Assembly: GCA_004295055.1 (NCBI GenBank)
Contig: SHNJ01000022.1
Span: 1-34,034 of the forward strand
Origin: Alphaproteobacteria bacterium
GTDB lineage: Bacteria > Pseudomonadota > Alphaproteobacteria > SHNJ01
Reading direction: 5' to 3'
DNA: 34,034 nucleotides
Position numbers and translations under genes: made by a program. This document shows positions 6,395 to 24,550 of this stretch, in pieces. Every line of letters starts with the position of its first letter. Positions within the stretch are counted from its first letter, which is position 1. The notes below the pieces were generated by a model that was not told the origin of the DNA, ran no database searches, and saw only the letters and a program-made list of their open reading frames with translations.

Positions 6395-7537
6395 TTATGC
6401 CGGTTTGGCGGCTGTTTCAGTAATTCCAAGTAACTTCAGACTGCGGCTAACGACCTGATCTGGAATGAATGGCTTAATAATGTACCCGGTTGCGCCCATC
6501 GCGTAGGCTTTTTTGATATCGGTTTCCTTGCGTTTGGAAGTCAGAAATAGAACGGGAATATACTTGGTGTCGGGATTGCTGCGGATTCGCTGCAATACCG
6601 CAGGACCGTCCATGCCCGGCATAATCCAATCCAATATGGCCAGTTTGACCTTATTTTGTCCAATGATCTCCACGGCTTCCAGGCCGTTTTTCGCCAGCAG
6701 TAAGCGCACGCCGGTGCCTTTGAATTTTTCGGTAAATAAATCCAGGATTGCAGCATCATTGTCGGCAATCAGCAGCGTGCGATTTAAATTTTTTAAAACT
6801 GGCGCAACTTTTTCCGCGAGATATCGCAATTCAAAAGGCTTGGTAACATAATCGAACGCGCCGATGGATTTGGCTAATTCTATGTCGAGGGGCTTTTTGT
6901 TCGCGGTCAGCATGATAACGGGAATTTTCGCCGTCAATGGATCTTTTTTCACCTGTTCCAGCAAATCGATGCCGCGCATATCGGCAAGCCCGTCATCCAA
7001 TAACACCAAAGCCGGTTTGTGATGCCGGATAATATCCAATGCCTTGGCGCCGTTATTGGCGGTCATTACCTCGGCTTCGCGCTTGAATAATGCGACGACC
7101 AAGTCTCGAATAACTGGATCGTCATCGGTAATTAAAATAACTGGCTTGAATTGCTGAGCGATTTGTTCGAGCGAATTCAATTCTGCCTCGCTTGAAAATT
7201 TGGGCATGTTGTCAATCATCTCCAGCGCTTTGTTGCAGGCTTGTAATAAATCCTCGGTTAAGGTGCGCAGCTTTTCGATAGAGGCTCTGTTGTCCAACGC
7301 AGTTTCCAGATCCGCAGCTGTCTGGCTGATATAGGAAAAGCCATAACTGGCGCCGGAACCGGCGAAATTATGGGCGCACTGGCGCATTTGCTGGAAAACC
7401 GTATCGTTAGCTCCGCCCATAGAGCAAGCCGTGATAAAATCGGTAATCTGCGGCCGGCGTTCGTGGAGTTGCGCCAGATATTTCCGGCGCAACAGAATCA
7501 TACGGTCCTGGATGGCCGCTTTATTATTATCCTGCAT
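6395..7537 (-). CDS. Hpt-REC-REC phosphorelay protein A
   Basis: This 380-residue soluble relay protein has an N-terminal Hpt helical domain (1-110) with the probable phospho-histidine at residue 56 in CAHNFAGSGASYGF, then two receiver domains (about 130-245 and 250-370). Receiver 1 keeps TDDD, LLLD and TKPF elements. Receiver 2 keeps the LAILD aspartate and IKPF lysine but has IADND, so the second acidic residue of the metal-binding pair is Asn. No output domain follows. I chose ATG 7537 because GGGAG lies seven bases upstream and because the divergent paralogue starts at the same point; an ATG at 7564 is less likely. It overlaps the upstream receiver gene by 11 bases, giving an operon order kinase, receiver, Hpt-REC-REC. 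Confidence 0.88.
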   Translation of the reverse strand: MQDNNKAAIQDRMILLRRKYLAQLHERRPQITDFITACSMGGANDTVFQQMRQCAHNFAGSGASYGFSYISQTAADLETALDNRASIEKLRTLTEDLLQACNKALEMIDNMPKFSSEAELNSLEQIAQQFKPVILITDDDPVIRDLVVALFKREAEVMTANNGAKALDIIRHHKPALVLLDDGLADMRGIDLLEQVKKDPLTAKIPVIMLTANKKPLDIELAKSIGAFDYVTKPFELRYLAEKVAPVLKNLNRTLLIADNDAAILDLFTEKFKGTGVRLLLAKNGLEAVEIIGQNKVKLAILDWIMPGMDGPAVLQRIRSNPDTKYIPVLFLTSKRKETDIKKAYAMGATGYIIKPFIPDQVVSRSLKLLGITETAAKPA

Positions 7538-7916
7538 TGGCGGACTCCCATTGTTTTTGCACATCCTGCGGCAGGGTCATGGGGTCAAAAGGTTTTGGAA
7601 TTACGCCGATGGCGCCGCATTTTATGAATTCAGCGACTTCATTAGACTGCACTTTGGCGGTCATGAATACGACCGGTATGGACGATGCACCGTTTTTCCT
7701 AAGCGCTTCCAGTGTGCTTGGCCCGTTCATTTCCGGCATCATGACATCCATTAGAATTAAATCGGGCTTTGTGTTTTCCACATAAGCAAGGGCTTCCTTG
7801 CCGCTAGTGCAGGTATGGACTTCGAAATTGCCGACCATTTCCAGGGACATTTTGGCGATTTCCAGAATATCGGATTCGTCATCGACGCATAAAATATGTT
7901 TTAAGGTGGTGCTCAT
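7527..7916 (-). CDS. Single-domain response regulator (CheY-like) A
   Basis: This 129-residue protein is one receiver domain. The acidic pocket CVDDE, phospho-acceptor in LILMDVMMPEMNG, the FMTA threonine and the KPFDP lysine are all present, so it should be phosphorylatable. There is no output domain. It lies between the hybrid kinase (4-base ATGA overlap) and the Hpt-REC-REC gene (11-base overlap). It closely resembles the receivers at 16165-16560 and 22080-22466, notably in PKPxDPM near the C-terminus, so the three are recent paralogues. It probably shuttles phosphate between kinase and Hpt, or binds a target directly. AAGGAG precedes its ATG. Confidence 0.93.
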   Translation of the reverse strand: MSTTLKHILCVDDESDILEIAKMSLEMVGNFEVHTCTSGKEALAYVENTKPDLILMDVMMPEMNGPSTLEALRKNGASSIPVVFMTAKVQSNEVAEFIKCGAIGVIPKPFDPMTLPQDVQKQWESANAG

Positions 7917-10123
7917 TGTAAGGCTCCTTTTCTATGAGAGTGCGCGACCATAGCCATGATGCGGTCGATAATGTAATTTTCCGAAACCCGGGATTTCACC
8001 AAGGATGTCGAAACCTGTTTTTGGGTTTCGGCATCAACTTCGCTGGCGGATAAAATAATAACCGGAACCGGATGTTCCGCTATGTCTTTCAATTTTTTCA
8101 GAAAATTCAGGCCCGAGCCATCGGGCAGTTCGATGTCCATTACGACTAAATCAAAGTAAGTGTGTTCCAGCCATTTTTTCGCGCTGCCCAGGGTGGGGGC
8201 GTTTACGACAATCGCGTGTTCCATCATCGCGCTGCTAAGAATATGGCTCAGGTCGCTGTCATCTTCGATGTGCAGTATATGCGGCAGGCGTTCAATATCC
8301 CCGGACACTGCGCGTTTCAAGGAATGAATTAAACCGCCATTCAATTTGGCGGCCTCGGACGGCTTGTCCAGCCAATCGACGACGCCGATACGGTTGCCCT
8401 GCATCGTCTTTTTGCTTTCGCTGGCGCGGCCTGAAACGATTACAACCGGCAGATCGTGGGTTTCCGGGTGTTTACGCAATTCTTCGACAAAATCGACGCC
8501 GCTGCCGTCCGGCAGCATAATGTCCATGGTCATGGCGGAAAAAGTTTTGTCCTGCAGTTTGCGGCGGGCCTCGGCAATATTGTAGGCAGTATCGGTTGTA
8601 AATCCTGCGCGTTCCAGGTAAGCCTTGATCAATCCGCTCATCGTTTTATCGTCCTCGCAAATCAAAATCGCATGAGGCAAATTGGATCCCGTTGGCGCAA
8701 CGGCTATGGGCGCCGATTCAGGAATTAATTTCGGCAGGGTGAAATAAAAGCACGTGCCTTTGCCAATTTCGGTTTCAAAGTCGATTTTCCCCTTCATGGC
8801 CTCTATCAGCTTTGCAGTAATGCGCAAACCTAGGCCAGTGCCGTCGGTTTTACGCGCATCGGAATTGTCGGCGCGCGAAAACTTTTCGAACATGCGCGGC
8901 CGGAATTCGTCAGGAATGCCGTCGCCAAAATCGCGGACCGAAAATACCACCTTATCGCCTTTATCCTCGGCGCCGATCCAAACCTCGGAATTTGGATGTG
9001 AAAATTTTGCTCCGTTCGACAAAAGTTTGGTTAGGATTTGGATTAATCGATCCGGGTCGGCTATGACTTGCGTATCTTCCGGCGCTTTTTTCAGAATGAA
9101 TTGAACCTTGTATTTCTCGCTGTATGTTTGATTGATTTCGATGGATTGCAGCAGTATTTGCTTCACATTGACCGGCCTTGATACTATCGCCATTTTCCCG
9201 GCCTCGACTTTTTCTATGTCCAGAATGTCGTTTATGATTAAAATCAGCCGTTCGCTGTTTTTATGCGCGATACGGACAAACTCGGCAGCCTTGTCGGGGA
9301 TTTTGCCCAGAACACCGCCTGCGATAAGCCCCAGTGCGCCGCGAATGGAAGTAAGCGGCGTGCGCAATTCATGGCTTACGGTAGAAATAAATTCGCTCTT
9401 TAACCGGTCCATTTCCACCCGCGCGCCGATATCCAGAAACTGCATAATATAATGATCGGCGTTTTCTTTGCCGCCTGGCGCCAAAGTTACATTCAGCATA
9501 ACCGATACGGTTTGGCTGTTTTTGCCGATAAGACGTTTTTCCATGGTAAAGGACGTAATATCCCCCTTCATGGATTGATGAATGTATTGCATATTTTTAT
9601 GTAAGTCGTCGGGGTGTGAAATGGCTTCGAAATTATTGCCGATAAGTTCTTGTTCGTTGTAACCGAGCATGCTGCACAGGGATTTATTGACCTTTAGGAA
9701 CTGCCCTTCGGTGGAAACGGATGCCATGCCGATAACGGCATTGTCCATGACAGTATGAAACACCGCGTCCCGCGATTGAATTTCGGCGGTTTTTTCTTTT
9801 ATCAGCCGCTGTGCAGTTTGCAGGCGTCCGGCGATAATAAATGCAATGATAGACAGTACGAGAATGACCGATAATCCATATACAGAAATTGTGCCGGAAT
9901 TGTTGACCGTGACCCCAAGCAGCAGTGCGCCAACCAATATGCCCGGCCATAGCCGGTATCCGGCAAGCAGAATGACGGCGACCGCGAGAGAGGACGCAAG
10001 AAAAATAAACGAAAACTGTTCCGTCGCCATTATTAGCGTGAAACTAAGTTTGGTGGCCGAATAATATGCAATTGCCAAAATCGCGCATTGCAGAATATAA
10101 GAGCGCGCAAAACGCTCAAGCAT
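7913..10123 (-). CDS. Hybrid histidine kinase: membrane sensor-PAS-HisKA-HATPase-REC-REC
   Basis: This is a 736-residue inner-membrane kinase. Four hydrophobic helices occupy residues 8-100 and resemble part of a MASE1-type sensor (GYRLWPGILVGALLLG). A PAS domain follows (122-235). HisKA has its phospho-histidine at 251 in SHELRTPLTSIRG. The ATPase domain has the N box near 361-375, DFGDGIP near 398 and DGTGLGL near 427. Two receivers have acceptor aspartates near 534 and 663. The final receiver has LVKSRV in place of the usual K-P, as in the paralogous kinase at 19061-22090. AAGGA lies eight bases before the start. It heads the minus-strand operon and is divergent from the polysaccharide operon across a 348-base gap. 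Confidence 0.93.
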   Translation of the reverse strand: MLERFARSYILQCAILAIAYYSATKLSFTLIMATEQFSFIFLASSLAVAVILLAGYRLWPGILVGALLLGVTVNNSGTISVYGLSVILVLSIIAFIIAGRLQTAQRLIKEKTAEIQSRDAVFHTVMDNAVIGMASVSTEGQFLKVNKSLCSMLGYNEQELIGNNFEAISHPDDLHKNMQYIHQSMKGDITSFTMEKRLIGKNSQTVSVMLNVTLAPGGKENADHYIMQFLDIGARVEMDRLKSEFISTVSHELRTPLTSIRGALGLIAGGVLGKIPDKAAEFVRIAHKNSERLILIINDILDIEKVEAGKMAIVSRPVNVKQILLQSIEINQTYSEKYKVQFILKKAPEDTQVIADPDRLIQILTKLLSNGAKFSHPNSEVWIGAEDKGDKVVFSVRDFGDGIPDEFRPRMFEKFSRADNSDARKTDGTGLGLRITAKLIEAMKGKIDFETEIGKGTCFYFTLPKLIPESAPIAVAPTGSNLPHAILICEDDKTMSGLIKAYLERAGFTTDTAYNIAEARRKLQDKTFSAMTMDIMLPDGSGVDFVEELRKHPETHDLPVVIVSGRASESKKTMQGNRIGVVDWLDKPSEAAKLNGGLIHSLKRAVSGDIERLPHILHIEDDSDLSHILSSAMMEHAIVVNAPTLGSAKKWLEHTYFDLVVMDIELPDGSGLNFLKKLKDIAEHPVPVIILSASEVDAETQKQVSTSLVKSRVSENYIIDRIMAMVAHSHRKGALQ

Positions 10124-10471
10124 AGCAGATTCCTTTTGTAGAAAATTAGAAAGCAGAGTCGAACAATCCCAATTTTAGTTGTTAAACATTAAAAAATACT
10201 TATGGGGAAAATGACGGCGGTATGCAATTCCAACGGCAGCGGTTCACGCATACAAAACACAATCGCAAATATCGCGGTATGTTTTTTATATCGCGGTGTA
10301 TGCGTGTAGAAAAAATCTTGCAGAAAAAAATAGAAACCAATTTTTTTCACGCGCACGCATGAAAACTGTTTAGTCGCTGTTAATTTTTAGCCGATAGCCT
10401 GAAGGTTCTTCACTATCAATCTTTTATTTTCCATCTAATTGCGCTTTGGCGCGCCGCACGGGAATAATGCT
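10124..10471. promoter_or_regulatory. Divergent control region with repeated motifs
   Basis: This 348-base gene-free stretch separates the two divergent signalling operons and must hold both promoters. ATATCGCGGT occurs twice as a direct repeat at 10269-10278 and 10288-10297, 19 bases apart, close to two helical turns. CACGCATAC (10245-10253) is inverted as GTATGCGTG (10298-10306), enclosing those repeats, and CACGCAT recurs at 10354-10360. The arrangement suggests a regulator site serving both operons. The region is otherwise A/T-rich, and I cannot assign -10/-35 boxes with confidence. Confidence 0.55.
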
Positions 10472-11635
10472 ATGGCAAACGAAGACCTACAACAAAAGCT
10501 GCAGGCTAAGATGCGTGTCCTGACCAATCGTTATCTGAACGATTTAACTAAACGCATTGATGATATCGAAAATTTAACCGAACAGATTGATCGGAATGGC
10601 ATTGATAATGACAGCCGTCAGGCTTTGCGATATCCAGCCCACTATGCGGCCGGTACCGGTGGGTCTTATGGTTTTCCGGTCATCAGCCAGAGTGGGCGCA
10701 CGCTGGAAGATGCGATTCTGTCGCCGGATCGATTCGACACAAAGGATATTGTCCGGCTATCTCAGGATTTGATTCGCATTTCACGCGAGATTATTGCTAG
10801 GCATCATGCGGAAAATCCGGAAACGGCCGTTATTCCGCCGCAAGCGGAACCAGCACAGCCACAGCCGGTCAAGCAATCTTCATCCTTGCCGCTGGTGTTG
10901 ATTGTGGATGACGATGAACTGATTCATCAGGCTTGCAAGGAATTATTATCCGCCGATGCGCGCCTGATATTCGGTAAAAACACGGACGAGGCATTGGATG
11001 CAATGCGCGAACATAAGCCCGATTTGGTGTTGCTGGACGATATGATGCCCGGTGGGATTACTGGATTGAGTTTTTTAGAGGGACTGCAGGATAATCAGGA
11101 ATTATCAAAGATTCCCATAATTATGATTACAGCCAGCAGCAGGCCAAAAGACGTGATGCGGGGTCTTGTGGCTGGCGCGGCGGATTATATTGCAAAGCCA
11201 ATAGACTATTCGTTGCTAGGCGAAAAAATAAGGCAGCGTTTAAACCGGCTGAATACTAAAATCCTGGTGGTTGATGACGATGAAACCGTGCGCGACCTGC
11301 TGGATCATAAATTTTCTTTCTCCGGTTGCAAGATGCTGCAGGCGGAAAATGGCAATGAAGCCTGGGATTTGATTCATAAAAATAAACCAGATCTGATTTT
11401 ATTGGACCGGATGATGCCGGGAATAGACGGCATAGCGTTGTTGGGCATGATGAAACAGAACCCGGAATTGAAAAATATTCCGGTCATTTTTCTGACCGCG
11501 CGCGATTCCAACGCAGACGTTTTAGAAGGATTTGGCATAGGCGCGGTGGATTACATTCCAAAACCTTTCAATCCCGACGAAGTTGTGGCGCGCTGCATGC
11601 GCATTATTCAGGCGACGGAAAGAAAAGCATCATGA
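10472..11635 (+). CDS. Hpt-REC-REC phosphorelay protein B, first gene of the polysaccharide operon
   Basis: This 387-residue protein is a paralogue of the one at 6395-7537, on the other strand. The Hpt domain has the likely phospho-histidine at residue 57 in PAHYAAGTGGSYGF. A proline/glutamine-rich linker (about 120-140) leads to two receivers, with VDDDE...LLLDDMMPGG...KPID and VDDDE...LLLDRMMPGIDG...KPFNP. All catalytic positions of both receivers look intact. There is no output domain. ATG 10472 is chosen over an in-frame TTG at 10439 because GGGA sits eight bases upstream and the paralogue starts equivalently. The stop overlaps the start of the YaiO-like gene by four bases (ATGA), so this relay protein should be made together with the export machinery. 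Confidence 0.88.
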   Translation: MANEDLQQKLQAKMRVLTNRYLNDLTKRIDDIENLTEQIDRNGIDNDSRQALRYPAHYAAGTGGSYGFPVISQSGRTLEDAILSPDRFDTKDIVRLSQDLIRISREIIARHHAENPETAVIPPQAEPAQPQPVKQSSSLPLVLIVDDDELIHQACKELLSADARLIFGKNTDEALDAMREHKPDLVLLDDMMPGGITGLSFLEGLQDNQELSKIPIIMITASSRPKDVMRGLVAGAADYIAKPIDYSLLGEKIRQRLNRLNTKILVVDDDETVRDLLDHKFSFSGCKMLQAENGNEAWDLIHKNKPDLILLDRMMPGIDGIALLGMMKQNPELKNIPVIFLTARDSNADVLEGFGIGAVDYIPKPFNPDEVVARCMRIIQATERKAS

Positions 11636-12405
11636 AATTTATAATCATGATCTATATCGCGCTGTTTTGGTTTGCAAGCATGGCGCAAGCGGATGATTAC
11701 GACCCAGTTTGGCAAACGGATGCTGGTTTTGAATTCAGCGATTTTTCGCGCCGCAATCAGCCTAACTGGAATCAGGAGTTTACCCAGGTGACTAGATTTT
11801 TCGATTCCAAAAAAATGGCGATGCATGGGAAAATCATCCGTTACGACCAGTTTTCAAATATTGATAGCGAATATGAGGCAGGCGTTGATAGGTCCTTTTT
11901 TCCATGGTTAAACGCCTATCTATACGGATCGATGGCGCCGGACGCGGATTTCAGGCCGGAATGGCGATTGATGGGCGGCGGCAGCTTACGCCTGAACGAC
12001 CCGGCATGGAATTTGGTGCCGGTTTGGCTGACGCTGGATTCAAGGTACGAGGATTACAGCGATACGGAAGTGATGAATATTAATCCGGGTTTACGCATAG
12101 AACCGGCCGACCGTTGGTCGATAGCCGGCCGCATGATCAGCGTGAAACAGCGAAATGAAGAGCGCGTCTATGGTTTCGATTTGCGGCTGGATGGCGCCGT
12201 TGCGGATGATTGGAGATTTTATACGGGCTATGCCAACGCACCGGAAACGGTTGCTGGCGTAACCGTTGATACGACAACATATTTTGCAGGCGCGGCTATT
12301 GATATAACTCAGGCCCACACGCTAAGGCTTGGCTATACGCACGACGACCGCGAAAATTCCTATATACGGCAGGTATTGAATGTCAGCCTTACCTATCGCT
12401 TCTAA
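11632..12405 (+). CDS. YaiO-like outer-membrane beta-barrel protein
   Basis: This 257-residue protein has a signal peptide (residues 1-20, cleavage after MAQA). The mature part is an alternation of short amphipathic strands rich in W, Y, F and D. It ends in SLTYRF, a terminal-Phe signature for outer-membrane barrel assembly. The strand pattern (DAGFEFSDFSR, INPGLRIEPADRWSI, HTLRLGYTHDDRE) fits the YaiO family. In E. coli yaiO lies near yaiP, a family-2 glycosyltransferase gene, which agrees with the glycosyltransferase two genes downstream here. A role as polysaccharide export channel is inference. Family assignment is from pattern recognition and should be checked with the YaiO profile. Confidence 0.7.
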   Translation: MKFIIMIYIALFWFASMAQADDYDPVWQTDAGFEFSDFSRRNQPNWNQEFTQVTRFFDSKKMAMHGKIIRYDQFSNIDSEYEAGVDRSFFPWLNAYLYGSMAPDADFRPEWRLMGGGSLRLNDPAWNLVPVWLTLDSRYEDYSDTEVMNINPGLRIEPADRWSIAGRMISVKQRNEERVYGFDLRLDGAVADDWRFYTGYANAPETVAGVTVDTTTYFAGAAIDITQAHTLRLGYTHDDRENSYIRQVLNVSLTYRF

Positions 12406-13444
12406 ATTAATCTGGGTTTGGGCCGGCGTGTGCGGTTTGATAGTCGTGGCGTCTTGCGTATTGGTCCTGTTGTTATGGCGACGCATAGCCGAGGATAAAA
12501 AGCGGAAGTTTATAATTGATCATAAGTCGCGATGGAAAAAATATATATACGCTGCAATCTATTCGCCGATTTCTTTGAATGAAGACAGTCTGCCGGAATT
12601 GGAAGATTTAGACCGGCAAATTATTTTGGATCTTGCATTGGATATTATGCGTGGGATGGAGGGCCAGGATAATCGCCGGGTCGTTGAGATGCTTAGTTTG
12701 TGGGGGATGCAGGCCTTTATTTATAAAACGGCACGTACAACATCCAAGGGACGCCGGATACGAGCTCTGACCTTGCTGGGATATTTTTCCGATGATGTAT
12801 CCATTGCCGTGCTGCTGGAAGCTTTGCAGGACCGGGATGTTTATGTGCGCCTGGCCGGGCTGCGGGCGTTGGCGGTGCGCAAGTCGGTACAGTATTTACA
12901 GCAAATTTTACAAAGCCTGACATTGAATGGAACGGTCAATATTCCGCTGCTTGCGGATACGTTGCGCCGGTTCGGGGAACCGGTTGTGGTGCCGTTATTG
13001 AATATTATAAGGGATAAGGGCCTGAACGCGGATGTTCGGGCCGCCTGCATTAAGGCGCTGGGATCGATTAAACCGTTAGAGGCGGTTAACGATTTAATCG
13101 CCCTGTTGGCAGAAGAGAATGCTGAAATTGTGTTTCAGTCTTTGGATTCCATTGGCAGAATAGGGGATGCGCGGGCCATTTACGGAGTTCTGGCACTAAC
13201 AAAGCGACCGCAACCGGAAATACGCGCCAAAGCCAGTCAGGTCCTGGGATTGTTACAGCAATCCGAGGCTATTCCCAGTTTATCGGACAGCCTGACCGAC
13301 GAAAATTGGAGCGTGCGTTTTCAGGCGGCGCAGGCATTGTATAAAATCGGCGCAAAAGGCGTTGCAATTCTGCGCGCGCATGCAGGCAATCAGGATCGTG
13401 CCGGTATTATGGCGGCGCAAATGCTGGCGGAAATGGAGGGGTGA
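12380..13444 (+). CDS. Membrane-anchored HEAT-repeat protein
   Basis: This 354-residue protein has one N-terminal membrane helix (about 8-32) followed by basic residues, placing the rest in the cytoplasm. From about residue 125 to the end it is a chain of paired helices with HEAT/PBS-lyase-like repeats (ALQDRDVYVRLAGLRAL, ALGSIKPLEAVNDLIALL, SLTDENWSVRFQAAQAL). HEAT arrays are protein-binding scaffolds. It overlaps the barrel gene by 26 bases and meets the glycosyltransferase start at its stop codon, so it belongs to the export operon. I infer it may link the synthase to the relay proteins. Starting later at GTG 12428 would cut the membrane helix, so the ATG is preferred despite the long overlap. 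Confidence 0.82.
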   Translation: MSALPIASKLIWVWAGVCGLIVVASCVLVLLLWRRIAEDKKRKFIIDHKSRWKKYIYAAIYSPISLNEDSLPELEDLDRQIILDLALDIMRGMEGQDNRRVVEMLSLWGMQAFIYKTARTTSKGRRIRALTLLGYFSDDVSIAVLLEALQDRDVYVRLAGLRALAVRKSVQYLQQILQSLTLNGTVNIPLLADTLRRFGEPVVVPLLNIIRDKGLNADVRAACIKALGSIKPLEAVNDLIALLAEENAEIVFQSLDSIGRIGDARAIYGVLALTKRPQPEIRAKASQVLGLLQQSEAIPSLSDSLTDENWSVRFQAAQALYKIGAKGVAILRAHAGNQDRAGIMAAQMLAEMEG

Positions 13445-14865
13445 TGTTTCTGCCGCCGGAATATCAATTTTATTTCGAAATTATGGCCTGGTGCATTCTG
13501 GCAATCGGGCTGACACAGGATTTAATTTATTTACTGGAACTGCCGGCAGCCTGGCTTGAATTCAGAAAACATTCTCATGCCGAAGATACGGAATCCGCCT
13601 GGCAATTCTTATTATCCGATACCGCGCCGCCGATCAGTCTAATTATTCCGGCCTATAATGAACAAGCCACAATTGTGGAAAGCGTTCGATCGGGCTTGGC
13701 GTTGAAATATCCGGATTTGGAAATTGTGGTGGTGAATGACGGGTCCAAAGATGAAACATTGCAAACTTTAATTAATGCCTTTCAGTTGAAACCGGTTACC
13801 AGAGCCCACAATCTAACAATTCCTCATGCGCCAATACATGGCGTATATGGATCGAAATTATATCCAAGACTGTTGGTGATAGATAAGGAAAATGGCGGCG
13901 GCAAGGCCAATGCCAGCAATGCCGGCATTAATTTCGCGCGGAATCCGTTATTCTGCGTGATTGATGCGGATTCTTTATTGGAAGGCGAGGCATTATTGCG
14001 CGCTGTGCGCCCATTCTTGGAAGAACCAAAGCAAATGATTGCCGTAGGCGGTACTATCCGCATTTTAAATGGCTGTTTAATCCGTGCAGGACAGATTAAG
14101 GAAGTGCGGCTGCCCACGCATTTCCTGCCTTTGGTGCAGAATATGGAATATATACGGGCATTCCTAATGGCTCGTCTGGCATGGAGTTATTGGGGAATGC
14201 TCGGCATCATTTCGGGCGCTTTTGGAATTTTCCGCCGGGACATCGCGCTGGAAGCGGGCGGATATTCCATCAATTGCATTGGCGAGGATTACGAACTGGT
14301 TATTAAAATGCATCGGGCCATGCGCGAAAAACAAATTCCCTATGCGATGCGATATGTGCCCGAGCCCGTATGCTGGACCGAAGGGCCGGAAACCCTGGAA
14401 ACGCTGGGCAATCAGCGTAAACGCTGGCAGCGCGGCGCGTTGCAGGTTTTTTTTAAGCATCGGCGGATGTTGTTAAATCCCAGATACGGCAAAATCGGCA
14501 TGCTGGCCTTGGTTCATAGTCTGATTGTGGATGTGATTGGGCCCTTTGCCGAATTTTTGGGATATATCATTATTCCTATCTTATGGGCGATGGGAGTTTT
14601 GAATATGGAATTTATGCTGGCCTATATCGCCGTATTTTTCGGATTTGGAATTTTTATCAGTATTTGCACTTTGTCGCTGGAAGAAATGCAGTTAATGCGG
14701 GTGCCCCGGACACGCGATCTTCTAAGATTGGCCGGCGTGGCCGTGATAGAAAATTTCGGGTACCGGCAATTGAACAATATCTGGCGGGTTATAGGCTGGC
14801 TGGATTTCCTGCGCGGTAAGAAAGGTTGGGGCCAGATGACCCGGAAAGGGTTTGGGGCGGCGTAA
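13444..14865 (+). CDS. Processive family-2 membrane glycosyltransferase
   Basis: This is a 473-residue polysaccharide synthase. One N-terminal membrane helix (about 12-33) precedes a GT-A catalytic domain with IIPAYNE (about 68), VVVNDGSKDE (about 96), the DAD metal site (about 175), GEDYEL (about 281) and QRKRW (about 325). The last is the QxxRW motif of processive enzymes such as BcsA, PgaC and NodC. Two or more membrane helices follow (about 358-420). There is no PilZ domain, so direct cyclic-di-GMP control is not seen. The sugar cannot be named. ATG 13444 overlaps the preceding TGA by one base; GTG 13441 is too close to the GGAGG at 13435. The stop overlaps the epimerase start by one base. 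Confidence 0.92.
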   Translation: MFLPPEYQFYFEIMAWCILAIGLTQDLIYLLELPAAWLEFRKHSHAEDTESAWQFLLSDTAPPISLIIPAYNEQATIVESVRSGLALKYPDLEIVVVNDGSKDETLQTLINAFQLKPVTRAHNLTIPHAPIHGVYGSKLYPRLLVIDKENGGGKANASNAGINFARNPLFCVIDADSLLEGEALLRAVRPFLEEPKQMIAVGGTIRILNGCLIRAGQIKEVRLPTHFLPLVQNMEYIRAFLMARLAWSYWGMLGIISGAFGIFRRDIALEAGGYSINCIGEDYELVIKMHRAMREKQIPYAMRYVPEPVCWTEGPETLETLGNQRKRWQRGALQVFFKHRRMLLNPRYGKIGMLALVHSLIVDVIGPFAEFLGYIIIPILWAMGVLNMEFMLAYIAVFFGFGIFISICTLSLEEMQLMRVPRTRDLLRLAGVAVIENFGYRQLNNIWRVIGWLDFLRGKKGWGQMTRKGFGAA

Positions 14866-15791
14866 TGGGAAAAGTACTGGTCACAGGCGGTGCGGGTTTC
14901 ATTGGCAGTCATTTGGTCGATGCGCTGTTGGATGCGGGGGAACAAGTGCTGGTAGTGGATGATCTTTCTACCGGAGACCGGACAAATTTACGGCGAGAAG
15001 CGGAGTTTATTCAAGGGGACATTGCCGACCCCAAGTTAATCAAGTTTCTGGCGAAAGATATTGACCGTTGTTTTCATTTGGCGGCGATCGCGTCTGTCGA
15101 GCGGGCGAACCGCGAGTGGCTGCAGACGCATCGCATCAATGCAGGCGGTATTGTCAATCTTTTCCAGGCAATCGCCGCCGGGGAACGGACTATTCCCGTG
15201 GTTTATGCTTCCTCGGCGGCGGTTTATGGCAATAATAGCGGTGACTGTAACAGCGAAGATGATATCCCGCATCCGATAAGCGCCTATGGCGCGGACAAGC
15301 TGGCGTGCGAGCTGCATGGGGAAGTCGCGGCCAGGATACATAAAATTCCTAATGCCGGTCTGCGATTCTTTAATGTGTTTGGCCAGCGGCAAAATTCGTC
15401 TTCGCCGTATTCCGGAGTAATTTCGGCATTCGGCCACAGAATCGCCGCCGGTTATCCCATTACTATATTCGGCGATGGATACCAAAGCAGGGATTTTGTT
15501 TTTGTAAAAGATGCCGTAAAGGCCCTTATAATGGCAAGCTGCGCGTTGCAAACAGGCAAGATCACATCCGGAGTTTTTAATGTATGCACGGGACAGGGTG
15601 TAAGAATAAAAGATTTGCCGGAGATGATAGGGGACATTGTTCGCCGCAGACCGCAAATCGAATACGCGCCTGCCCGGGCAGGCGACATACAACAGTCTTT
15701 AGGCAGCCCACAAAAGGCAAGATTACAGTTAAATTATGCCGCCGAATTTTCAGCCAAACAGGGTTTGGAATTAATGTTCAATTCCATGTAA
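14865..15791 (+). CDS. NAD-dependent nucleotide-sugar epimerase/dehydratase
   Basis: This 308-residue enzyme is an extended short-chain dehydrogenase. It has the Rossmann motif TGGAGFIGSHL (7-17), an acidic NAD-ribose position (VVDDLSTG, about 30-37), the SSAAVYG serine region (about 116) and catalytic YGADK (Tyr141, Lys145). DFVFVKDAVKAL and the C-terminal SPQKARLQL segment match UDP-glucose or UDP-GlcNAc 4-epimerase-type proteins. It probably supplies the nucleotide sugar used by the glycosyltransferase immediately upstream. The upstream in-frame TTG at 14826 is rejected because the Rossmann strand begins right at ATG 14865, which overlaps the preceding TAA by one base. It is the last gene of the operon and converges on the Hpt gene. 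Confidence 0.92.
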   Translation: MGKVLVTGGAGFIGSHLVDALLDAGEQVLVVDDLSTGDRTNLRREAEFIQGDIADPKLIKFLAKDIDRCFHLAAIASVERANREWLQTHRINAGGIVNLFQAIAAGERTIPVVYASSAAVYGNNSGDCNSEDDIPHPISAYGADKLACELHGEVAARIHKIPNAGLRFFNVFGQRQNSSSPYSGVISAFGHRIAAGYPITIFGDGYQSRDFVFVKDAVKALIMASCALQTGKITSGVFNVCTGQGVRIKDLPEMIGDIVRRRPQIEYAPARAGDIQQSLGSPQKARLQLNYAAEFSAKQGLELMFNSM

Positions 15792-15808
15792 TAAACTTAT
15801 GGTTGTAT
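15792..15808 (+). repeat. Left arm of a 17-bp perfect inverted repeat
   Basis: TAAACTTATGGTTGTAT begins one base after the epimerase stop. Its exact reverse complement stands at 16659-16675. The pair brackets the Hpt and receiver genes at 15828-16560. Confidence 0.85.
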
Positions 15809-15827
15809 ATAATTTTATATTAAAGTG

Positions 15828-16178
15828 TCATGTGGATTCATCTGTGGATCGTTCATCAATTAGAATTTTATCGCAAGAATGAATTAAGGAATCGATATAA
15901 TCCGCCACAAGCTTTTGATGGGCTGGGGCAATAGTATGCAGCATCTCGTGAAACACTTTTCCTTGTTCCGTTATTTTTGGAAATCCATAGGTCGTGCCTG
16001 ATCCAATCAGCCCATGAATTTCTTTTCTAAGATCCTGATAATGCTCTGGCGTTGCTTTTTCTTCCCGCAGTATTTCCGCAAATTGCCGCAGTTGGTCGAT
16101 GCGCGCCCCCAATCCATCAAGGTAAGACACGCGCATGCGTTGCATCAACTGTCGCAGTTCAGTATCATTCTTGTTCAT
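15828..16178 (-). CDS. Stand-alone Hpt phosphotransfer protein
   Basis: This 116-residue all-helical protein is a single Hpt domain. The likely phospho-histidine is residue 55 in EIHGLIGSGTTYGFPKI. The HxxxG[ST]GxxYGF pattern is shared with the two Hpt-REC-REC proteins of this window and differs from the common HxLKGSSxxxGA. It should pass phosphate between receiver aspartates. ATG 16178 is preferred because GGAGAG lies six bases upstream; an upstream in-frame start at 16202 lacks support. It overlaps the receiver gene before it by 14 bases, so the two are co-translated. It converges on the epimerase gene of the polysaccharide operon. Confidence 0.85.
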   Translation of the reverse strand: MNKNDTELRQLMQRMRVSYLDGLGARIDQLRQFAEILREEKATPEHYQDLRKEIHGLIGSGTTYGFPKITEQGKVFHEMLHTIAPAHQKLVADYIDSLIHSCDKILIDERSTDEST

Positions 16179-16560
16179 GGTATGCTCTCCATTCCGATTC
16201 AATAATACGCGGTAAAACCATTGGATCCAATGGTTTTGGAATCACTCCGCTTACCCCCAGCGTATGATAGTATTCAACTTCATCGGGCTTTATTTTGGCG
16301 GTAAGAAACAAAACCGGCACTTCCCGCATGCGTGGAATTTCCCGGATTTTTTTTAGGGTTTCAAATCCATCCATCTCCGGCATCAATACATCCAATAATA
16401 TCATGTCGGGATTTATTTCTTCTATTTCCGCCAGCGCGCGCATACCACCGTCACAGGTTGTAACAACATAATTGCCCACATTTTCCAGTGAAAAACGAAT
16501 AACGGCGCGCATATCGTCTTCATCATCTATGCACAGAATTTTTTTTAATGATCGCAGCAT
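16165..16560 (-). CDS. Single-domain response regulator (CheY-like) B
   Basis: This 131-residue protein is one receiver domain with CIDDEDD acidic pocket, MILLDVLMPEMDG acceptor, FLTA threonine and KPLDP lysine. It has no output domain. It is a paralogue of the receivers at 7527-7916 and 22080-22466. It is transcribed with the Hpt gene downstream (14-base overlap) and divergently from the hybrid kinase at 16750. AGAGG lies upstream of its start. Together the pair forms a ready-made REC-Hpt relay step separate from the kinase polypeptides. Confidence 0.93.
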   Translation of the reverse strand: MLRSLKKILCIDDEDDMRAVIRFSLENVGNYVVTTCDGGMRALAEIEEINPDMILLDVLMPEMDGFETLKKIREIPRMREVPVLFLTAKIKPDEVEYYHTLGVSGVIPKPLDPMVLPRIIESEWRAYHEQE

Positions 16561-16638
16561 GGATAACCTCTGATTTTGCGTATGTAATTTATTTCATCGA
16601 AAGAACGCTATCGTAGGGTAGAAATTATTATTGTATTA

Positions 16639-16660
16639 ATTGCATATAATTCTATGCAAT
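16639..16660. promoter_or_regulatory. Palindromic operator candidate in the divergent gap
   Basis: ATTGCATA (16639-16646) and TATGCAAT (16653-16660) form an 8-bp perfect dyad with a 6-base spacer in the gap between the divergent receiver and hybrid kinase genes. It overlaps by two bases the right arm of the 17-bp inverted repeat. It could bind a dimeric regulator controlling both genes; none is encoded in the locus. Confidence 0.4.
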
Positions 16661-16675
16661 ACAACCATAAGTTTA
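16659..16675 (-). repeat. Right arm of a 17-bp perfect inverted repeat
   Basis: ATACAACCATAAGTTTA is the reverse complement of 15792-15808. It lies upstream of the hybrid kinase gene, so inversion of the bracketed segment would change what is divergent to that gene. Confidence 0.85.
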
Positions 16676-16749
16676 GTAGTGTTATTTATAAATTAATGGT
16701 TTTGTGGCTACAATAATAAAAGGGTTGTGCGATTTGGTGGAATAGGATC

Positions 16750-19044
16750 ATGCTACGACCTTCGTCAGTACATACAAAAAAGAGGCAGGGGGAGATATTC
16801 CCAATACACTCTTTTGCGTTCTCGGTTGTTTTAACTTTATTTATCGCATCATCCATTATTGGTTTCAGCGTTTACGGCAATCATTTGATTGACCGTGTTG
16901 TGCGACAGGATGTTGAAGTAAGGCAATATACTAAGAAAATAGAGGATTTAGGCGGGGATTTGTTGAAAAATTTGACGGCTTCGTCGGATTATACGGCCGT
17001 TAAATATAATTTAGATCAGGTGCTCGAGGAAATTGGCCATCGGTTTCCCATTGATGAAGTCCATAATAGAATACAAGAAATTCATAATCTGGAAGACAAC
17101 TTAATAAAATCCGCGGCATCGGAAACCGCGTCGGCGGCGCATTTGTCGCTGGAAAATAATTTATTGGAACAATTGTCGGAATTAGGCGATGCGCTGGAGG
17201 AATATGTATCCAATCAATTGTTATTGATTTCTAGAATGTTCGAGGTTGTGCTGGCGGCAGTCGTAACGGCTATCATGTTGGAAATTATTGCCTGGGCGGC
17301 ATCTTGGAAAAATATTTCTCAGTGGCAAAGACTGTGGGATGTGACGAAAGGAAAATTGGAAAATTCCCATCAAGCCACACGGGATGCGCTGGCGATTGCC
17401 GAGAAGGCGACTATGGCCAAAAGCGATTTTCTGGCCAACATGAGTCATGAAATCAGAACTCCGCTGCACGGCATTCTGGGGATGTCGAATCTGCTGTTTG
17501 ATACGGATTTATCCGCCGATCAGCGCAGCCTGGTGGATATTATTCGCAAATCCGGGGAAAACCTGCTTGGGTTGATTAGCGATATTCTCGATTTTTCCAA
17601 GATTGAAGCCGGTATGCTGACGCTGGAACCCGTCAATTTTGATTTACGCGATCTTGTCCGGGATGTCACGGATGTATTGTTTCTTAAAACGCAGGAAAAG
17701 GGGCTGGAAGTGCTGGTGGACATCGATCCAGCGGTTCCTCGCCATATAATATCCGATCCCGTGCGGTTGCGGCAGATATTGTTAAATCTGGTAAATAACG
17801 CCGTGAAGTTCACGGAAAACGGCCACGTATTGATAAAAGTAAAGTCCATTTCCGAGGACGATGCGGCAATCCGGTTATTTTTTGAAGTTCAGGATTCCGG
17901 TATAGGCATTGCGGAAGACAAGCTCGATTCTATTTTCAATCGCTATTCGCAAGCGGAAGAATCCACTACCCGCCATTTTGGCGGTACTGGGCTCGGCCTG
18001 TCGATTTGCCAGAAGCTGGTGAAAATGATGGGCGGGAACATCAATGTTTCGAGCCAGCAGGGCAGCGGATCGAATTTCCATTTTGATATTAAATGCAAAA
18101 AAGGCGAAGCAATTGAAGCCAGTCTGCCTCAAATTCCAAATATCGATTTGGCTGGAATTAGGGCTTTAATCGTGGACGATCAAGAAGTAAGCCGCGAGAT
18201 TCTACGGCGATTTTTGACCGCACTCTATATGCGGGTGGATATTTGCAGTTCGGGCGAAATGGCTTTGAAAAAGATGCGGGATGAGGCTTCATCCGATCCA
18301 TATCAGTTCCTGCTTACAGATTATAGATTGGCGGACGATATGAGCGGCCGGGATCTGGCCCAGCATGTTTCCGGCATCCCGGAACTGCGTCAAACGACCA
18401 TGATCATGGTCACCGCCTTGGCGCAAACAGTCACCAGCGGTTTTCTGGCACGCAATGGATTTGCCGCGTTTTTTGTCAAGCCTTGTTATCCCGATCACAT
18501 AAAGGCGGCCTTGCAAATATTATTGGATGCGAAACAGCACGGCAAAACGCTGCCGTTATTAACGCGCTTCCGCATAGAGAATATTTTGCAAGGAAATTCG
18601 GATAAACAGCAGTCGAATGTGAACATGTTCCATGGCATCCGCGTGTTGGTGGCGGAAGATATGAAAGTCAATGCGATGCTTATAACCCGCATACTGGAAA
18701 AGCGCGGCTGTCAAGTGGATATAGCCGTGAATGGAAGAGAGGCGGTGGAAAAACTGCGCGGCGCAAAATACGAAATCGTGTTTATGGATTGCCAGATGCC
18801 GGAAATGAACGGATATGAAGCCACGAAATGTATTCGCACCGAGGAAATGCCCAAAAATATTCACAATATAATTATCGCTTTGACCGCTGATGCAATGAGC
18901 GGCGACCAGGATAAGTGCCTTGCGGCAGGTATGGATGATTACTTGCACAAGCCGTTCAAGGAAGAACAAATCCACCAGATGCTGCAAAAATGGCTGACGC
19001 GCAAACCGCCCGTCATTCAAGCTCCCTCTGTTTATTATTCCTAG
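16750..19044 (+). CDS. Hybrid histidine kinase: periplasmic helical sensor-HisKA-HATPase-REC-REC
   Basis: This 764-residue inner-membrane kinase has two membrane helices (about 21-43 and 164-185) around a mainly helical periplasmic region of about 120 residues. A coiled coil leads to HisKA with His233 in MSHEIRTPLHGILG. The ATPase domain has NLVNNAVKFT (about 346), DSGIGI (about 382) and GGTGLGL (about 411). Two receivers follow, with acceptors near Asp524 (LLTDYRLADD) and Asp680 ([11 protein letters not shown]). There is no PAS or Hpt domain, so it would need a separate Hpt, which lies just upstream at 15828-16178. It is of the BarA/ArcB-like type rather than a paralogue of the other two kinases here. 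AGGAT precedes the start. Confidence 0.93.
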   Translation: MLRPSSVHTKKRQGEIFPIHSFAFSVVLTLFIASSIIGFSVYGNHLIDRVVRQDVEVRQYTKKIEDLGGDLLKNLTASSDYTAVKYNLDQVLEEIGHRFPIDEVHNRIQEIHNLEDNLIKSAASETASAAHLSLENNLLEQLSELGDALEEYVSNQLLLISRMFEVVLAAVVTAIMLEIIAWAASWKNISQWQRLWDVTKGKLENSHQATRDALAIAEKATMAKSDFLANMSHEIRTPLHGILGMSNLLFDTDLSADQRSLVDIIRKSGENLLGLISDILDFSKIEAGMLTLEPVNFDLRDLVRDVTDVLFLKTQEKGLEVLVDIDPAVPRHIISDPVRLRQILLNLVNNAVKFTENGHVLIKVKSISEDDAAIRLFFEVQDSGIGIAEDKLDSIFNRYSQAEESTTRHFGGTGLGLSICQKLVKMMGGNINVSSQQGSGSNFHFDIKCKKGEAIEASLPQIPNIDLAGIRALIVDDQEVSREILRRFLTALYMRVDICSSGEMALKKMRDEASSDPYQFLLTDYRLADDMSGRDLAQHVSGIPELRQTTMIMVTALAQTVTSGFLARNGFAAFFVKPCYPDHIKAALQILLDAKQHGKTLPLLTRFRIENILQGNSDKQQSNVNMFHGIRVLVAEDMKVNAMLITRILEKRGCQVDIAVNGREAVEKLRGAKYEIVFMDCQMPEMNGYEATKCIRTEEMPKNIHNIIIALTADAMSGDQDKCLAAGMDDYLHKPFKEEQIHQMLQKWLTRKPPVIQAPSVYYS

Positions 19045-19060
19045 TATCAACAGGTGATTT

Positions 19061-22000
19061 ATGATTAAAAAAATTTCAGTACCAATGTCCGACAATACAT
19101 ACCGGCCGGCGATCATGACAGAAAAAATATTATGGCTGGTTTATTTTGCCGGCGGATTTAGCGTGATGTTGGGTGCCATGGTAATTTATGGGTGGTTTAG
19201 CCACAATTTGTCGTTGGTACAAATTCACCCTACTTTTGTGGCGATGCAATTTAATACGGCGCTTGCATTTATTCTTTCTGGTGTAGGATTAATAGCGCTT
19301 GCGGCTCAACGCACCGGCCTGGCTCGTATTGTAACAATTCCATTATTTCTTATTGTTGGAATCACTTTTGCTCAATACATCACTGGATTTAATTTTGGCA
19401 TTGATAATTTATTTTTCAAGGCATACATCAATATACAACTATCCCATCTCGGCAGAATGGCTCCAAATACCTGTATTTCCTTTCTGCTGATGGGGCTTGC
19501 GATTGTTGCCGGTACTACGCATAAAGCATTCCTGAAGCGCACCTATATGATGCGTTTGATTGGAATGGTTATCCTGTTTCTAAGCGTTGTGGCGCTTGCC
19601 GGTTATATATTCCATGTCGAAGCTGGTTTTGGCTGGGCGTCGCTGACGCGCATGGCGATTCATACCGCTATAGGATTTTTGGTTCTTGGCAGCGGGATAT
19701 GGGCGTTTGCATCGTATGAATCTGTCGCCAATAGGATGTTATTCCGGGATGCGCCTGGCGGACATTTGCCGGTCATGGCCGCATTCGTTATTTTAGTGGC
19801 TTCTCTGGGCACATGGATTTATTTAGACACAAAAGAAATAGCCAATGCCCGAGGTTCCTTGTCTCGTTCGTTGGAATATGTGCAAATAGATCTTCAAAAC
19901 CGCGTTGAATCCCGTGTCCGCATGCTGGGCCGTATGGTGAATCGTTGGCAAGTCGAGCGCGGAACGCCTTACAATAAATGGAAGCCGGATGCCATCAGTT
20001 ATATCAAGGATCAGAAGGATTTGATTGCGATTCAGTGGATCGATGCCAATAACAACGTTCGTTGGTCCGAATTGGCCGATAGCATCGCCGATACCGCAGA
20101 AGTGTTTACAGCGGAAGAAAGATGGCCAACTTTACAAAGCTCTTTGGTTACCAAGCAGCCCGCATTTAGCCTTCCAATGAAAATTCTAAATAATAGTTAC
20201 GGGTTGATGATCAGCGTGCCGATATTTATAGGAGAAAGGTTCGATGGCTTTATAACCGGTTTTTATGAAATTCGGGAATTGGTAAGTAGCGCCGCGATAG
20301 CAAAGCAATTTGGCAGCGACGCTTGGCTGGAAATCAGCAATGGGAATAGGATTATTTTCGAAACCATCGGCATCGATCCGACAGATAAACTGCGTTGGAG
20401 TATACAGGAGAATTTGGACCTGTATGGTTCTGTATGGTCGTTCGAAGCCTGGCCAACGCAAAAATTCCTGTTGGCGCAACGATCCGCGTTTCCGGAAATG
20501 ATACTAACCGCAGGTATTTTGCTGGCTTTTCTGGTGGCTCATATATTGCGGCAGGCGGAAATTACCAGGCACCAAACTAATTTATTGGGACTTAGCGAAG
20601 AAACATTCCGCAATGCCATGGAATATGCGCCGGTAGGAATGGGTTTAATTTTTCCGTCGGGAGAGTGGTATAAAGTCAATAAGGCCCTGCGGAACATGAT
20701 GGGATATTCAGAAGTTGAAATATTCACCCTGAATCTTCAAACCATAACGCACCCTGATGATTGGCCAGAGGATCAGAAACGATTGAATGCCTTGTTGCGT
20801 GGCGATATTCAAAGTTTTCAAATTGAAAAACGGTTTATCCATAAATCGGGCAAATTGGTCTGGGCCTTGATTAATGCATCCCTGGCAAGAAATCCCAATG
20901 GAACGCCGAAATATATCATCAAACAAATTTTGGATATCACCGAACGTAAGGAAATTGAAAGAGTAAAAAGCGAATTCGTGTCTATGGTCAGCCACGAATT
21001 AAGAACGCCGTTGACCTCGATCCGTGGTTCTTTGGGTTTGATTCTAGGCGCAATGAATAAAAGCCTGCCGGACAAAGTTTTAAATCACATTTCGATTGCG
21101 CATCGCAATTGCGAACGGCTGATCGTTTTAATTAACGATATTCTGGATTTGGACAAGATTACATCGGGCAATATGCAATTCGATATCCGGCCCGAGAAAT
21201 TGTCATCTTTGATACAGCAGGCGGTGGAAGGAAACCAATCTTATGCAGAGAAATATAAGGTTCATTTCGAGGTGCGGCCAATTCCATTAGATATGATCGT
21301 TTATGCCGACAGCAACCGGACAATTCAAGTGCTGGCCAATCTTTTATCGAACGCCGCCAAGTTTTCGCCGGAACAAGCGACCGTTATCGTTGCGGCGGAG
21401 CAGAAGGGAAAATTTATCCGTATTTCTGTCAAAGATTCCGGATCTGGAATTCCACAGGATTTCCGCAGCCGCATTTTCAATAAATTCTGTCAGGCGGATT
21501 CTTCCGCCACGCGGCAAAAAGGCGGTTCTGGCCTGGGGCTTAACATAAGCCGGGAATTGGTTGAAAGAATGCATGGAAATATGGGTTTCGAAAGCGAAGA
21601 GGGAAAGGGAAGCTTGTTCTGGTTTGAATTGCCCAGTACCGATGAATTTGGCATGCGCGCGGCCGAGCCCATGGCCAAGCAAGAGCAAGTATATAATGAT
21701 AACCGCCCGTTGATTCTGCATATAGAAGATGATGTGGATTTAAGCACTTTATTGGCCAATGCGCTTAGCGAGCGCGCGGAAATTATTCAAGCGCCGACAA
21801 TATATCAAGCGGAAAAGCTATTAAAAGAAAAGAATTTCTCCCTGGTAATTTTGGATATCAATATGCCGGATGGAAATGGTCTGACATTGCTGGATCGCAT
21901 GGCGACATTAACCGATTATCCGGTGCCGTGGCTTATTTTGTCGGCCTATGAAACAACGTTGGATATTCGGGATCGCGTTGCGGCCACCATGATTAAATCA

Positions 22001-22090
22001 AGGGTTCCCGAAGGGAAGGTAATTGAAACTATTCTTAAAATACTGCAGCAGCCTACTACGCCTAAAGAAGGAGAAAAATATGGAACATAA
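19061..22090 (+). CDS. Hybrid histidine kinase: multi-TM sensor-CHASE-like-PAS-HisKA-HATPase-REC
   Basis: This is a 1009-residue inner-membrane kinase. About seven hydrophobic helices fill residues 22-255. An extracytoplasmic region of about 220 residues follows (257-475), with features of a CHASE-type ligand-binding domain, and a further helix (478-496). Then come PAS (505-630), HisKA with His645 in SHELRTPLTSIRG, the ATPase domain (NLLSNAAKFS about 760, DSGSGIP about 792, GSGLGL about 822) and one receiver with acceptor near Asp932. The kinase core and final receiver, including the KSR motif, are close to those of the kinase at 7913-10123, so the two are paralogues with different sensors. 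It lies 16 bases after the preceding kinase and overlaps the next receiver gene by 11 bases. Confidence 0.92.
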   Translation: MIKKISVPMSDNTYRPAIMTEKILWLVYFAGGFSVMLGAMVIYGWFSHNLSLVQIHPTFVAMQFNTALAFILSGVGLIALAAQRTGLARIVTIPLFLIVGITFAQYITGFNFGIDNLFFKAYINIQLSHLGRMAPNTCISFLLMGLAIVAGTTHKAFLKRTYMMRLIGMVILFLSVVALAGYIFHVEAGFGWASLTRMAIHTAIGFLVLGSGIWAFASYESVANRMLFRDAPGGHLPVMAAFVILVASLGTWIYLDTKEIANARGSLSRSLEYVQIDLQNRVESRVRMLGRMVNRWQVERGTPYNKWKPDAISYIKDQKDLIAIQWIDANNNVRWSELADSIADTAEVFTAEERWPTLQSSLVTKQPAFSLPMKILNNSYGLMISVPIFIGERFDGFITGFYEIRELVSSAAIAKQFGSDAWLEISNGNRIIFETIGIDPTDKLRWSIQENLDLYGSVWSFEAWPTQKFLLAQRSAFPEMILTAGILLAFLVAHILRQAEITRHQTNLLGLSEETFRNAMEYAPVGMGLIFPSGEWYKVNKALRNMMGYSEVEIFTLNLQTITHPDDWPEDQKRLNALLRGDIQSFQIEKRFIHKSGKLVWALINASLARNPNGTPKYIIKQILDITERKEIERVKSEFVSMVSHELRTPLTSIRGSLGLILGAMNKSLPDKVLNHISIAHRNCERLIVLINDILDLDKITSGNMQFDIRPEKLSSLIQQAVEGNQSYAEKYKVHFEVRPIPLDMIVYADSNRTIQVLANLLSNAAKFSPEQATVIVAAEQKGKFIRISVKDSGSGIPQDFRSRIFNKFCQADSSATRQKGGSGLGLNISRELVERMHGNMGFESEEGKGSLFWFELPSTDEFGMRAAEPMAKQEQVYNDNRPLILHIEDDVDLSTLLANALSERAEIIQAPTIYQAEKLLKEKNFSLVILDINMPDGNGLTLLDRMATLTDYPVPWLILSAYETTLDIRDRVAATMIKSRVPEGKVIETILKILQQPTTPKEGEKYGT

Positions 22091-22466
22091 ACTGCGGCGG
22101 ATCATGTGCGTGGATGACGAATTCGATGTGCTGGATATAACCAAAGAATGTTTGGAAACTGTGGGCGGATTTAATGTCACCTGTTGCAGCAGCGGGGCAG
22201 AGATGTTCTCTAGGTTAAAGGAAACATGTCCGGATTTGATATTGTTGGATGTGATGATGCCGGGCATGGACGGATTGAAAGTCCTTGAAGAGATACAAAA
22301 GAGCCCAGAGTTCAGTCATGTTCCGGTGGTATTTATGACAGCCAGGGTACAGCCAAAAGAGCTGGAGGAATATAAGCGTCTTGGATCGAAAGCGGCGATC
22401 CCAAAACCATTCGATCCCATGCAATTATCGGCCCAGGTTGAGGAAATCTGGTTAAAATACGCATAG
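22080..22466 (+). CDS. Single-domain response regulator (CheY-like) C
   Basis: This 128-residue protein is one receiver domain with CVDDEFD acidic pocket, LILLDVMMPGMDG acceptor, FMTA threonine and PKPFDPM lysine region. All phosphorylation residues are present and there is no output domain. ATG 22080 is chosen over the far upstream in-frame start at 22023 because AAGGAG lies seven bases before it and the paralogues begin at the same point. It overlaps the kinase stop by 11 bases, the same spacing pattern as the kinase-receiver pair at 7527-10123. A weak GC-rich hairpin with a T run lies near 22475-22497 and may end the transcript. Confidence 0.93.
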   Translation: MEHKLRRIMCVDDEFDVLDITKECLETVGGFNVTCCSSGAEMFSRLKETCPDLILLDVMMPGMDGLKVLEEIQKSPEFSHVPVVFMTARVQPKELEEYKRLGSKAAIPKPFDPMQLSAQVEEIWLKYA

Positions 22467-23076: not shown

Positions 23077-23135
23077 GGATCAATTCCTATATTGCAATTT
23101 GATGACAAGTGACCTGAACAATATACACATAAAAA

Positions 23136-23149
23136 ATATACATGTATAT
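23136..23149. promoter_or_regulatory. Candidate MarR operator 1
   Basis: ATATACATGTATAT is a perfect 14-bp palindrome in the 149-base gap between the divergent marR-type and efflux genes. Size and symmetry suit a MarR dimer. Confidence 0.55.
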
Positions 23150-23155
23150 ATAATT

Positions 23156-23172
23156 CATATATTGACTATATG
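23156..23172. promoter_or_regulatory. Candidate MarR operator 2
   Basis: CATATA-TTGAC-TATATG is an inverted repeat with 6-bp arms, 20 bases from the first palindrome (start to start). Its centre contains TTGAC, which could be a -35 element for the efflux operon, so binding here would block polymerase. Confidence 0.5.
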
Positions 23173-23225
23173 GCATGGCGGAGCTACCTTTGCAAGGAAA
23201 TTTATTATTCGCGGAGATTTTGGCC

Positions 23226-24548: not shown

Positions 24549-24550
24549 TC

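Follow-up and report, generated by a model that had tools for sequence, protein, structure and literature searches.

Organisation of the locus

The window, the whole stretch of 34,034 nucleotides that was analysed (contig SHNJ01000022.1 of an alphaproteobacterial assembly), contains between positions 6395 and 22466 nine signalling genes, which lie around genes for a YaiO-family barrel, a HEAT protein, a GT2 synthase and an epimerase. The genes, as called from their open reading frames (ORFs) and Pfam domains and by the means given in brackets, are:

6395-7564, minus strand: HRR1, an Hpt-REC-REC protein; terminal REC in the cassette-receiver (cREC) clade (Pfam, tree)
7527-7916, minus strand: REC1, a lone receiver of the kinase-side (kREC) clade (Pfam, tree)
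7913-10123, minus strand: HK1, a hybrid kinase, membrane (weakly MASE1-like)-PAS-HisKA-HATPase-REC-REC (Pfam)
10472-11635, plus strand: HRR2, Hpt-RECa-cREC, opening the cassette operon; ORF from 10439 (Pfam, tree, Hpt alignment)
11632-12405, plus strand: outer-membrane beta-barrel of the YaiO family; the TPR domain of its relatives is absent (TIGR04390)
12380-13444, plus strand: HEAT protein, a HEAT solenoid preceded by an N-terminal membrane helix of which one face is conserved (Pfam, AlphaFold, conservation)
13441-14865, plus strand: GT2 synthase, PgaC/cellulose/hyaluronan-synthase-like, with DADS, GED and QR.RW motifs (sequence family, motifs)
14865-15791, plus strand: NAD-dependent sugar epimerase/dehydratase, whose gene overlaps the stop codon of the GT and lacks conservation in relatives (Pfam)
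15828-16178, minus strand: stand-alone Hpt; ORF of 124 aa to 16202 (alignment, predicted structure, Foldseek)
16165-16560, minus strand: REC2, a lone receiver of the kREC clade (Pfam, tree)
16750-19044, plus strand: HK2, a HisKA-HATPase-REC-REC hybrid kinase with a membrane/extracytoplasmic N-terminal part (Pfam)
19061-22090, plus strand: HK3, a hybrid kinase, large membrane sensor-PAS-HisKA-HATPase-REC (Pfam)
22080-22466, plus strand: REC3, a lone receiver of the kREC clade; ORF from 22023 (Pfam, tree)

Plausible starts were found at 10472 (HRR2), 14865 (epimerase), 16178 (Hpt) and 22080 (REC3). The genes form four units: HK1-REC1-HRR1 (minus strand), HRR2-barrel-HEAT-GT-epimerase (plus), REC2-Hpt (minus) and HK2-HK3-REC3 (plus). 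The second of these is very likely a single translationally coupled operon, since the start and stop codons of its genes overlap. An earlier, sequence-only reading of this DNA had listed the barrel, HEAT, glycosyltransferase and epimerase genes as the only non-signalling genes inside the locus; the ORFs and their domains agreed with this.

Beyond the locus, positions 22555-29165 encode a MarR regulator, an HlyD-type adaptor, an AcrB-type pump and an outer-membrane channel, likely an ordinary efflux operon. At 29945-31579 two partial genes meet head-to-head near 30920: on the minus strand the 3' part of a gene for a hybrid kinase (end of HATPase-REC-Hpt), and on the plus strand that of a chemoreceptor-like gene. 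As both lack their 5' ends, either a rearrangement or an assembly junction seems to be present here.

Signalling domains

The same reading had estimated about 12 receiver and 3 Hpt domains on the nine signalling genes, and no output domain. Domain analysis gave 12 REC and 3 Hpt domains; in none of the nine proteins did Pfam detect an effector domain, whether DNA-binding, GGDEF, EAL or another. HRR1, HK1, HRR2 and HK2 each contain two REC domains by Pfam, and REC1, REC2, HK3 and REC3 one each. The entire genome had 42 REC matches, 40 of them above the cut-off, and 12 of these 40 were inside this 16-kb stretch; the locus makes up 0.8% of the genome, and an even spread over 1.95 Mb would put about 0.3 REC here. 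All 12 receivers have kept the phospho-acceptor Asp, and the HK1b and HK3 receivers are apparently degenerate at the conserved Lys.

The Hpt of HRR1 was above the Pfam cut-off. In the initial Pfam scan, the N-terminus of HRR2 and the 124-aa ORF at 15828-16202 had no Hpt match; both contain the signature H-x-x-x-G-x-G-x-x-Y-G-F that is also present in the Hpts of related loci. Across 39 aligned Hpts the His was the sole invariant column, and PF01627 matched 38 of them at an E-value of 0.01, the exception being the stand-alone Hpt of the window. For this protein a four-helix bundle was predicted (pLDDT 95), and a Foldseek comparison of the model to the PDB gave matches that included Hpt/CheA-P1 structures; their E-values were weak, which is usual for bundles this small. 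Judged by sequence, all parts of a multistep phosphorelay are present: HisKA/HATPase kinases with REC domains, a phospho-His Hpt and phospho-Asp receivers.

The polysaccharide cassette

The barrel was identified as a YaiO-family outer-membrane protein (TIGR04390 score 89, cut-off 32), so that the operon has its own dedicated outer-membrane barrel, as is expected of synthase-dependent exopolysaccharide (EPS) systems. In relatives the barrel protein carries a TPR domain, which is absent from that of the window. By sequence family and by its conserved motifs (DADS, GED, QR.RW) the GT2 protein is a predicted processive membrane synthase. It is similar to PgaC, cellulose synthase and hyaluronan synthase and stays under the equivalog cut-off of every one of them (142.7 bits for PgaC/IcaA, where 422.3 are needed). 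This cassette probably serves to make a sugar polymer and to export it.

The AlphaFold model of the HEAT protein (pLDDT 95.5) consists of a single long N-terminal helix, hydrophobic at its start, followed by the HEAT solenoid. Conservation runs along one face of the membrane helix (family residues L10, W14, S17, A/S24, M28, L31 and R35), which suggests that the helix packs against a partner in the membrane, the GT being the simplest candidate; the conserved residues may also be fold residues. A Foldseek search with the model returned mainly designed alphaRep proteins and generic HEAT/ARM proteins, and no functional lead.

Compared with the PgaABCD, Bcs and Alg systems, the GT2 protein is related to PgaC and cellulose synthase, and relatives of the window share with them an outer-membrane protein of TPR plus barrel and, in some cases, a polysaccharide deacetylase. 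However, here a HEAT protein takes the place of the PgaD/Alg44-type partner, the barrel is of the YaiO and not the PgaA/BcsC type, and a receiver gene replaces the c-di-GMP-binding subunit. In Escherichia coli the YaiO-family barrel is likewise encoded near a GT2 enzyme, YaiP (our comparison was by TIGR04390 only); we know of neither a HEAT protein nor a receiver in that system.

No PgaB-type deacetylase gene was found in the window, and some relatives do have one. Polysaccharide deacetylase genes lie by the cassette in some genomes (L046, 5410-7281; L016, genome G013, 16211-18049), as PgaB does in PNAG systems. A predicted secreted protein of about 525 aa without a Pfam match is encoded near the cassette in L079 (5167-6744) and in relatives, 10 genus-level groups in all. 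Large repeat-rich adhesin-like genes were seen near the cassette in four genera (L058, 15020-21313; L028, 19145; L051, 755; L067, 13545).

Related loci

The HEAT protein diverges fast (relatives are 18-40% identical to that of the window), and because of this a search of genome contigs with the HEAT protein alone gave no matches. An alignment of the GT was therefore used as the query, against one genome per species. More than 500 loci matched, of which the 80 best were retained, a set that is biased towards the GT of the window, and domains in these loci were called with profiles built from the window and its relatives.

The sequence-only reading would have had to be given up if signalling genes and cassette rarely occurred together in other genomes; the opposite was found, and in relatives the two strongly co-occur. 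Five of these best 80 of over 500 loci could not be judged, and in 69 of the other 75 a REC gene lies directly 5' of barrel-HEAT-GT; the six without it belong to Methylobacterium (five) and Ponticaulis (one). In the three Maritalea loci the REC precedes HEAT-GT and the barrel was not found. In most of the 80 the genes overlap or adjoin. Genes for a kinase, a second receiver and an Hpt are located within a few kb, either upstream or, often, on the opposite strand just past the GT. From the same best 80 loci, 29 genus-level groups with at least 5 kb on either side were counted: a cREC was present in 27, and within 7 kb there was a kinase in 22 and an Hpt in 18. The density of signalling domains in these 29 groups dropped from about 1 per kb immediately upstream to less than 0.1 per kb past +4 kb.

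Samples of the class and the phylum yielded 10 extra, more distant loci outside the 80 (3 from the window's class, 7 from other classes). The upstream REC was kept in 8 of these, some of them outside the class, and was absent in G459 and G468. The receiver-HEAT-synthase operon spans Mesorhizobium to Sphingomonas and Brevundimonas, plus genomes outside the class. At the thresholds used, 6 of the 385 genomes sampled from the class and 14 of the 398 sampled from the phylum carry the GT (with the window's genome counted), so that the system is scattered rather than universal. We found no paper on a YaiO/HEAT/glycosyltransferase/response-regulator operon of this type in the open-licence PMC literature.

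The epimerase had no match in any of the 80 loci (the best of more than 500) and was rejected as a core member. The interpretation of the sequence-only reading, that the relay would control the cassette by protein contact, was supported in part: signalling genes and cassette co-occur and one specific receiver family belongs to the cassette operon, but the epimerase falls outside the conserved core and some homologous loci encode GGDEF proteins (see below).

The window's version, unusually large, has two cRECs and three each of kinases, kRECs and Hpts, and its 12 receivers compare with a maximum of 6 counted in the related loci. That its three kinases, three kRECs and two Hpt-REC-REC proteins exceed the numbers in relatives suggests local duplication, which would suit a duplication-prone signalling island that happens to lie by a polysaccharide operon, with the receivers as phosphate sinks and no direct functional tie. 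We regard this explanation as very improbable: the gene order is common to many genera, also outside the class, so that synteny largely contradicts it, and the overlapping genes and the position-specific receiver families described below also argue against it.

Receiver families

Trees of 175-183 receivers were made with FastTree; with sequences this short, and with FastTree's own supports, the deep branching is insecure. The receivers split into two families by position, cREC at the cassette and kREC on the kinase side. The cREC clade contained all 48 cassette receivers together with HRR2b and HRR1b of the window, and, in addition, a receiver of Inquilinus and two Methylobacterium ones that lie farther away from the cassette. 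Another 18 receivers of the window's genome all fell outside it. REC1, REC2 and REC3 grouped in a separate kREC clade of 34 rows (FastTree support 99-100). The support of the cREC clade was 83 and dropped to 16 once loci of other classes were added; five out-of-class cRECs stayed outside the clade.

In the 27 loci with all parts, cREC distances correlated with those of the GT (0.81) and the HEAT protein (0.83), against 0.55 and 0.66 for the kRECs. This is a measure of co-inheritance, not of contact. In one cREC (G430; L144, 6952-7389) the phospho-Asp is replaced by Glu, which may mimic permanent phosphorylation, and the cREC of G664 appears degenerate.

Inputs and outputs

The sensor domains of the kinases vary and include CHASE3, MASE1, 5TMR, CHASE, GAF and Cache. 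Among the non-kinase receiver proteins of related loci, 89 of 94 had no output domain and the other five were of the OmpR or LuxR type. This recurrence of the output-less arrangement across many Proteobacteria suggests the polysaccharide machine itself as the recipient of the signal.

Alternatively, the cREC and Hpt proteins could pass their phosphate to a distant DNA-binding regulator that controls the cassette. Single-domain receivers can indeed be relay intermediates, as MrrA is in Caulobacter (PMC11481889), and OmpR-type regulators adjoin the kinase and cassette genes in two loci (L064 and L082). We nevertheless consider such an unlinked output unlikely, given that the cREC gene opens the cassette operon in 69 of the 75 loci that could be judged (from the best 80 of over 500), that cREC distances follow cassette distances, and that neighbour-ORF clustering with GC3-aware selection detected no conserved DNA-binding or transcription-factor neighbour in the related loci.

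Another route would be c-di-GMP: phosphorylated receivers would stimulate a diguanylate cyclase, unlinked here and linked in relatives, and c-di-GMP would control the synthase as it does PgaCD or BcsA. Second-messenger wiring is present in some relatives, since in Methylobacterium, where five loci have no receiver before the barrel, a PAS-GGDEF-EAL gene lies 3' of the GT (L071, 11696-13828), and G653, from outside the window's class, encodes an Hpt-REC-GGDEF protein within its relay cluster (L149, 16405-18063). The window's genome contains three GGDEF domains, one of them on an ORF carrying two REC domains, and c-di-GMP is a frequent regulator of synthase-dependent EPS (PMC12802240). However, GGDEF and EAL were absent from the window's locus and from the 94 scanned receiver proteins of related loci, and Pfam gave no PilZ match in the cassette proteins; we judge this route improbable.

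Proposed mechanism

The most economical reading of the sequences is that the cREC is the end point of the relay and acts on the co-encoded HEAT-GT complex. Sensor kinases with variable inputs would autophosphorylate, and the phosphate would pass through the hybrid RECs and/or a kREC and an Hpt to the cREC. The best hint that the Hpt hands its phosphate to the cREC is their fusion as Hpt-RECa-cREC in the window, Asticcacaulis, Maritalea and a few MAGs; other loci have separate Hpt and cREC genes. Phospho-cREC would then dock on the membrane-anchored HEAT-GT complex and switch the synthase on or off. In this complex the HEAT protein would serve as the scaffold and the GT2 synthase would polymerise a putative polysaccharide and pass it through the inner membrane, with the YaiO barrel as the predicted passage through the outer membrane. 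Linkage, gene overlap and correlated distances could also arise from co-regulation without contact.

A precedent for control of EPS synthesis by contact with a single-domain receiver is the Dif pathway of Myxococcus xanthus, in which phosphorylated EpsW raises EPS post-translationally via a membrane enzyme, EpsZ (PMC12802240); for the cREC such contact is predicted. EpsZ acts in a Wzx/Wzy pathway as a phosphoglycosyl transferase (PMC12802240), whereas the candidate target of the cREC is a GT2 synthase, accompanied by a HEAT partner and a YaiO barrel. The kinase of the Dif pathway is chemosensory, whereas here hybrid kinases and an Hpt would feed the receiver. HRR1 reached 95.3 bits with the EpsW model NF041866 of NCBIfam, for which the cut-off is 200. 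We also considered EmbRS of Rubrivivax and Hmr of Caulobacter, and discarded both as other kinds of system.

Receiver control of EPS synthesis and synthase-dependent EPS are both of known kinds; it is their combination that is new. We think it rather likely that a module widespread in Proteobacteria is present here in expanded form, and that in this module a multi-input relay ends on a cREC dedicated to the regulation of a synthase-dependent EPS machine. More tentatively, but still quite conceivably, a phospho-receiver could be a standing regulatory subunit of synthase-dependent machines across Proteobacteria, bound to a HEAT adaptor on the synthase, so that a His-Asp phosphorelay and not c-di-GMP would gate polymer synthesis directly. 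Synthase-dependent EPS is mostly regarded as controlled by c-di-GMP. If true, the proposed control would give sensor kinases a direct and general path to the polymer-making enzyme, and it would provide a function for many single-domain receivers that now have none.
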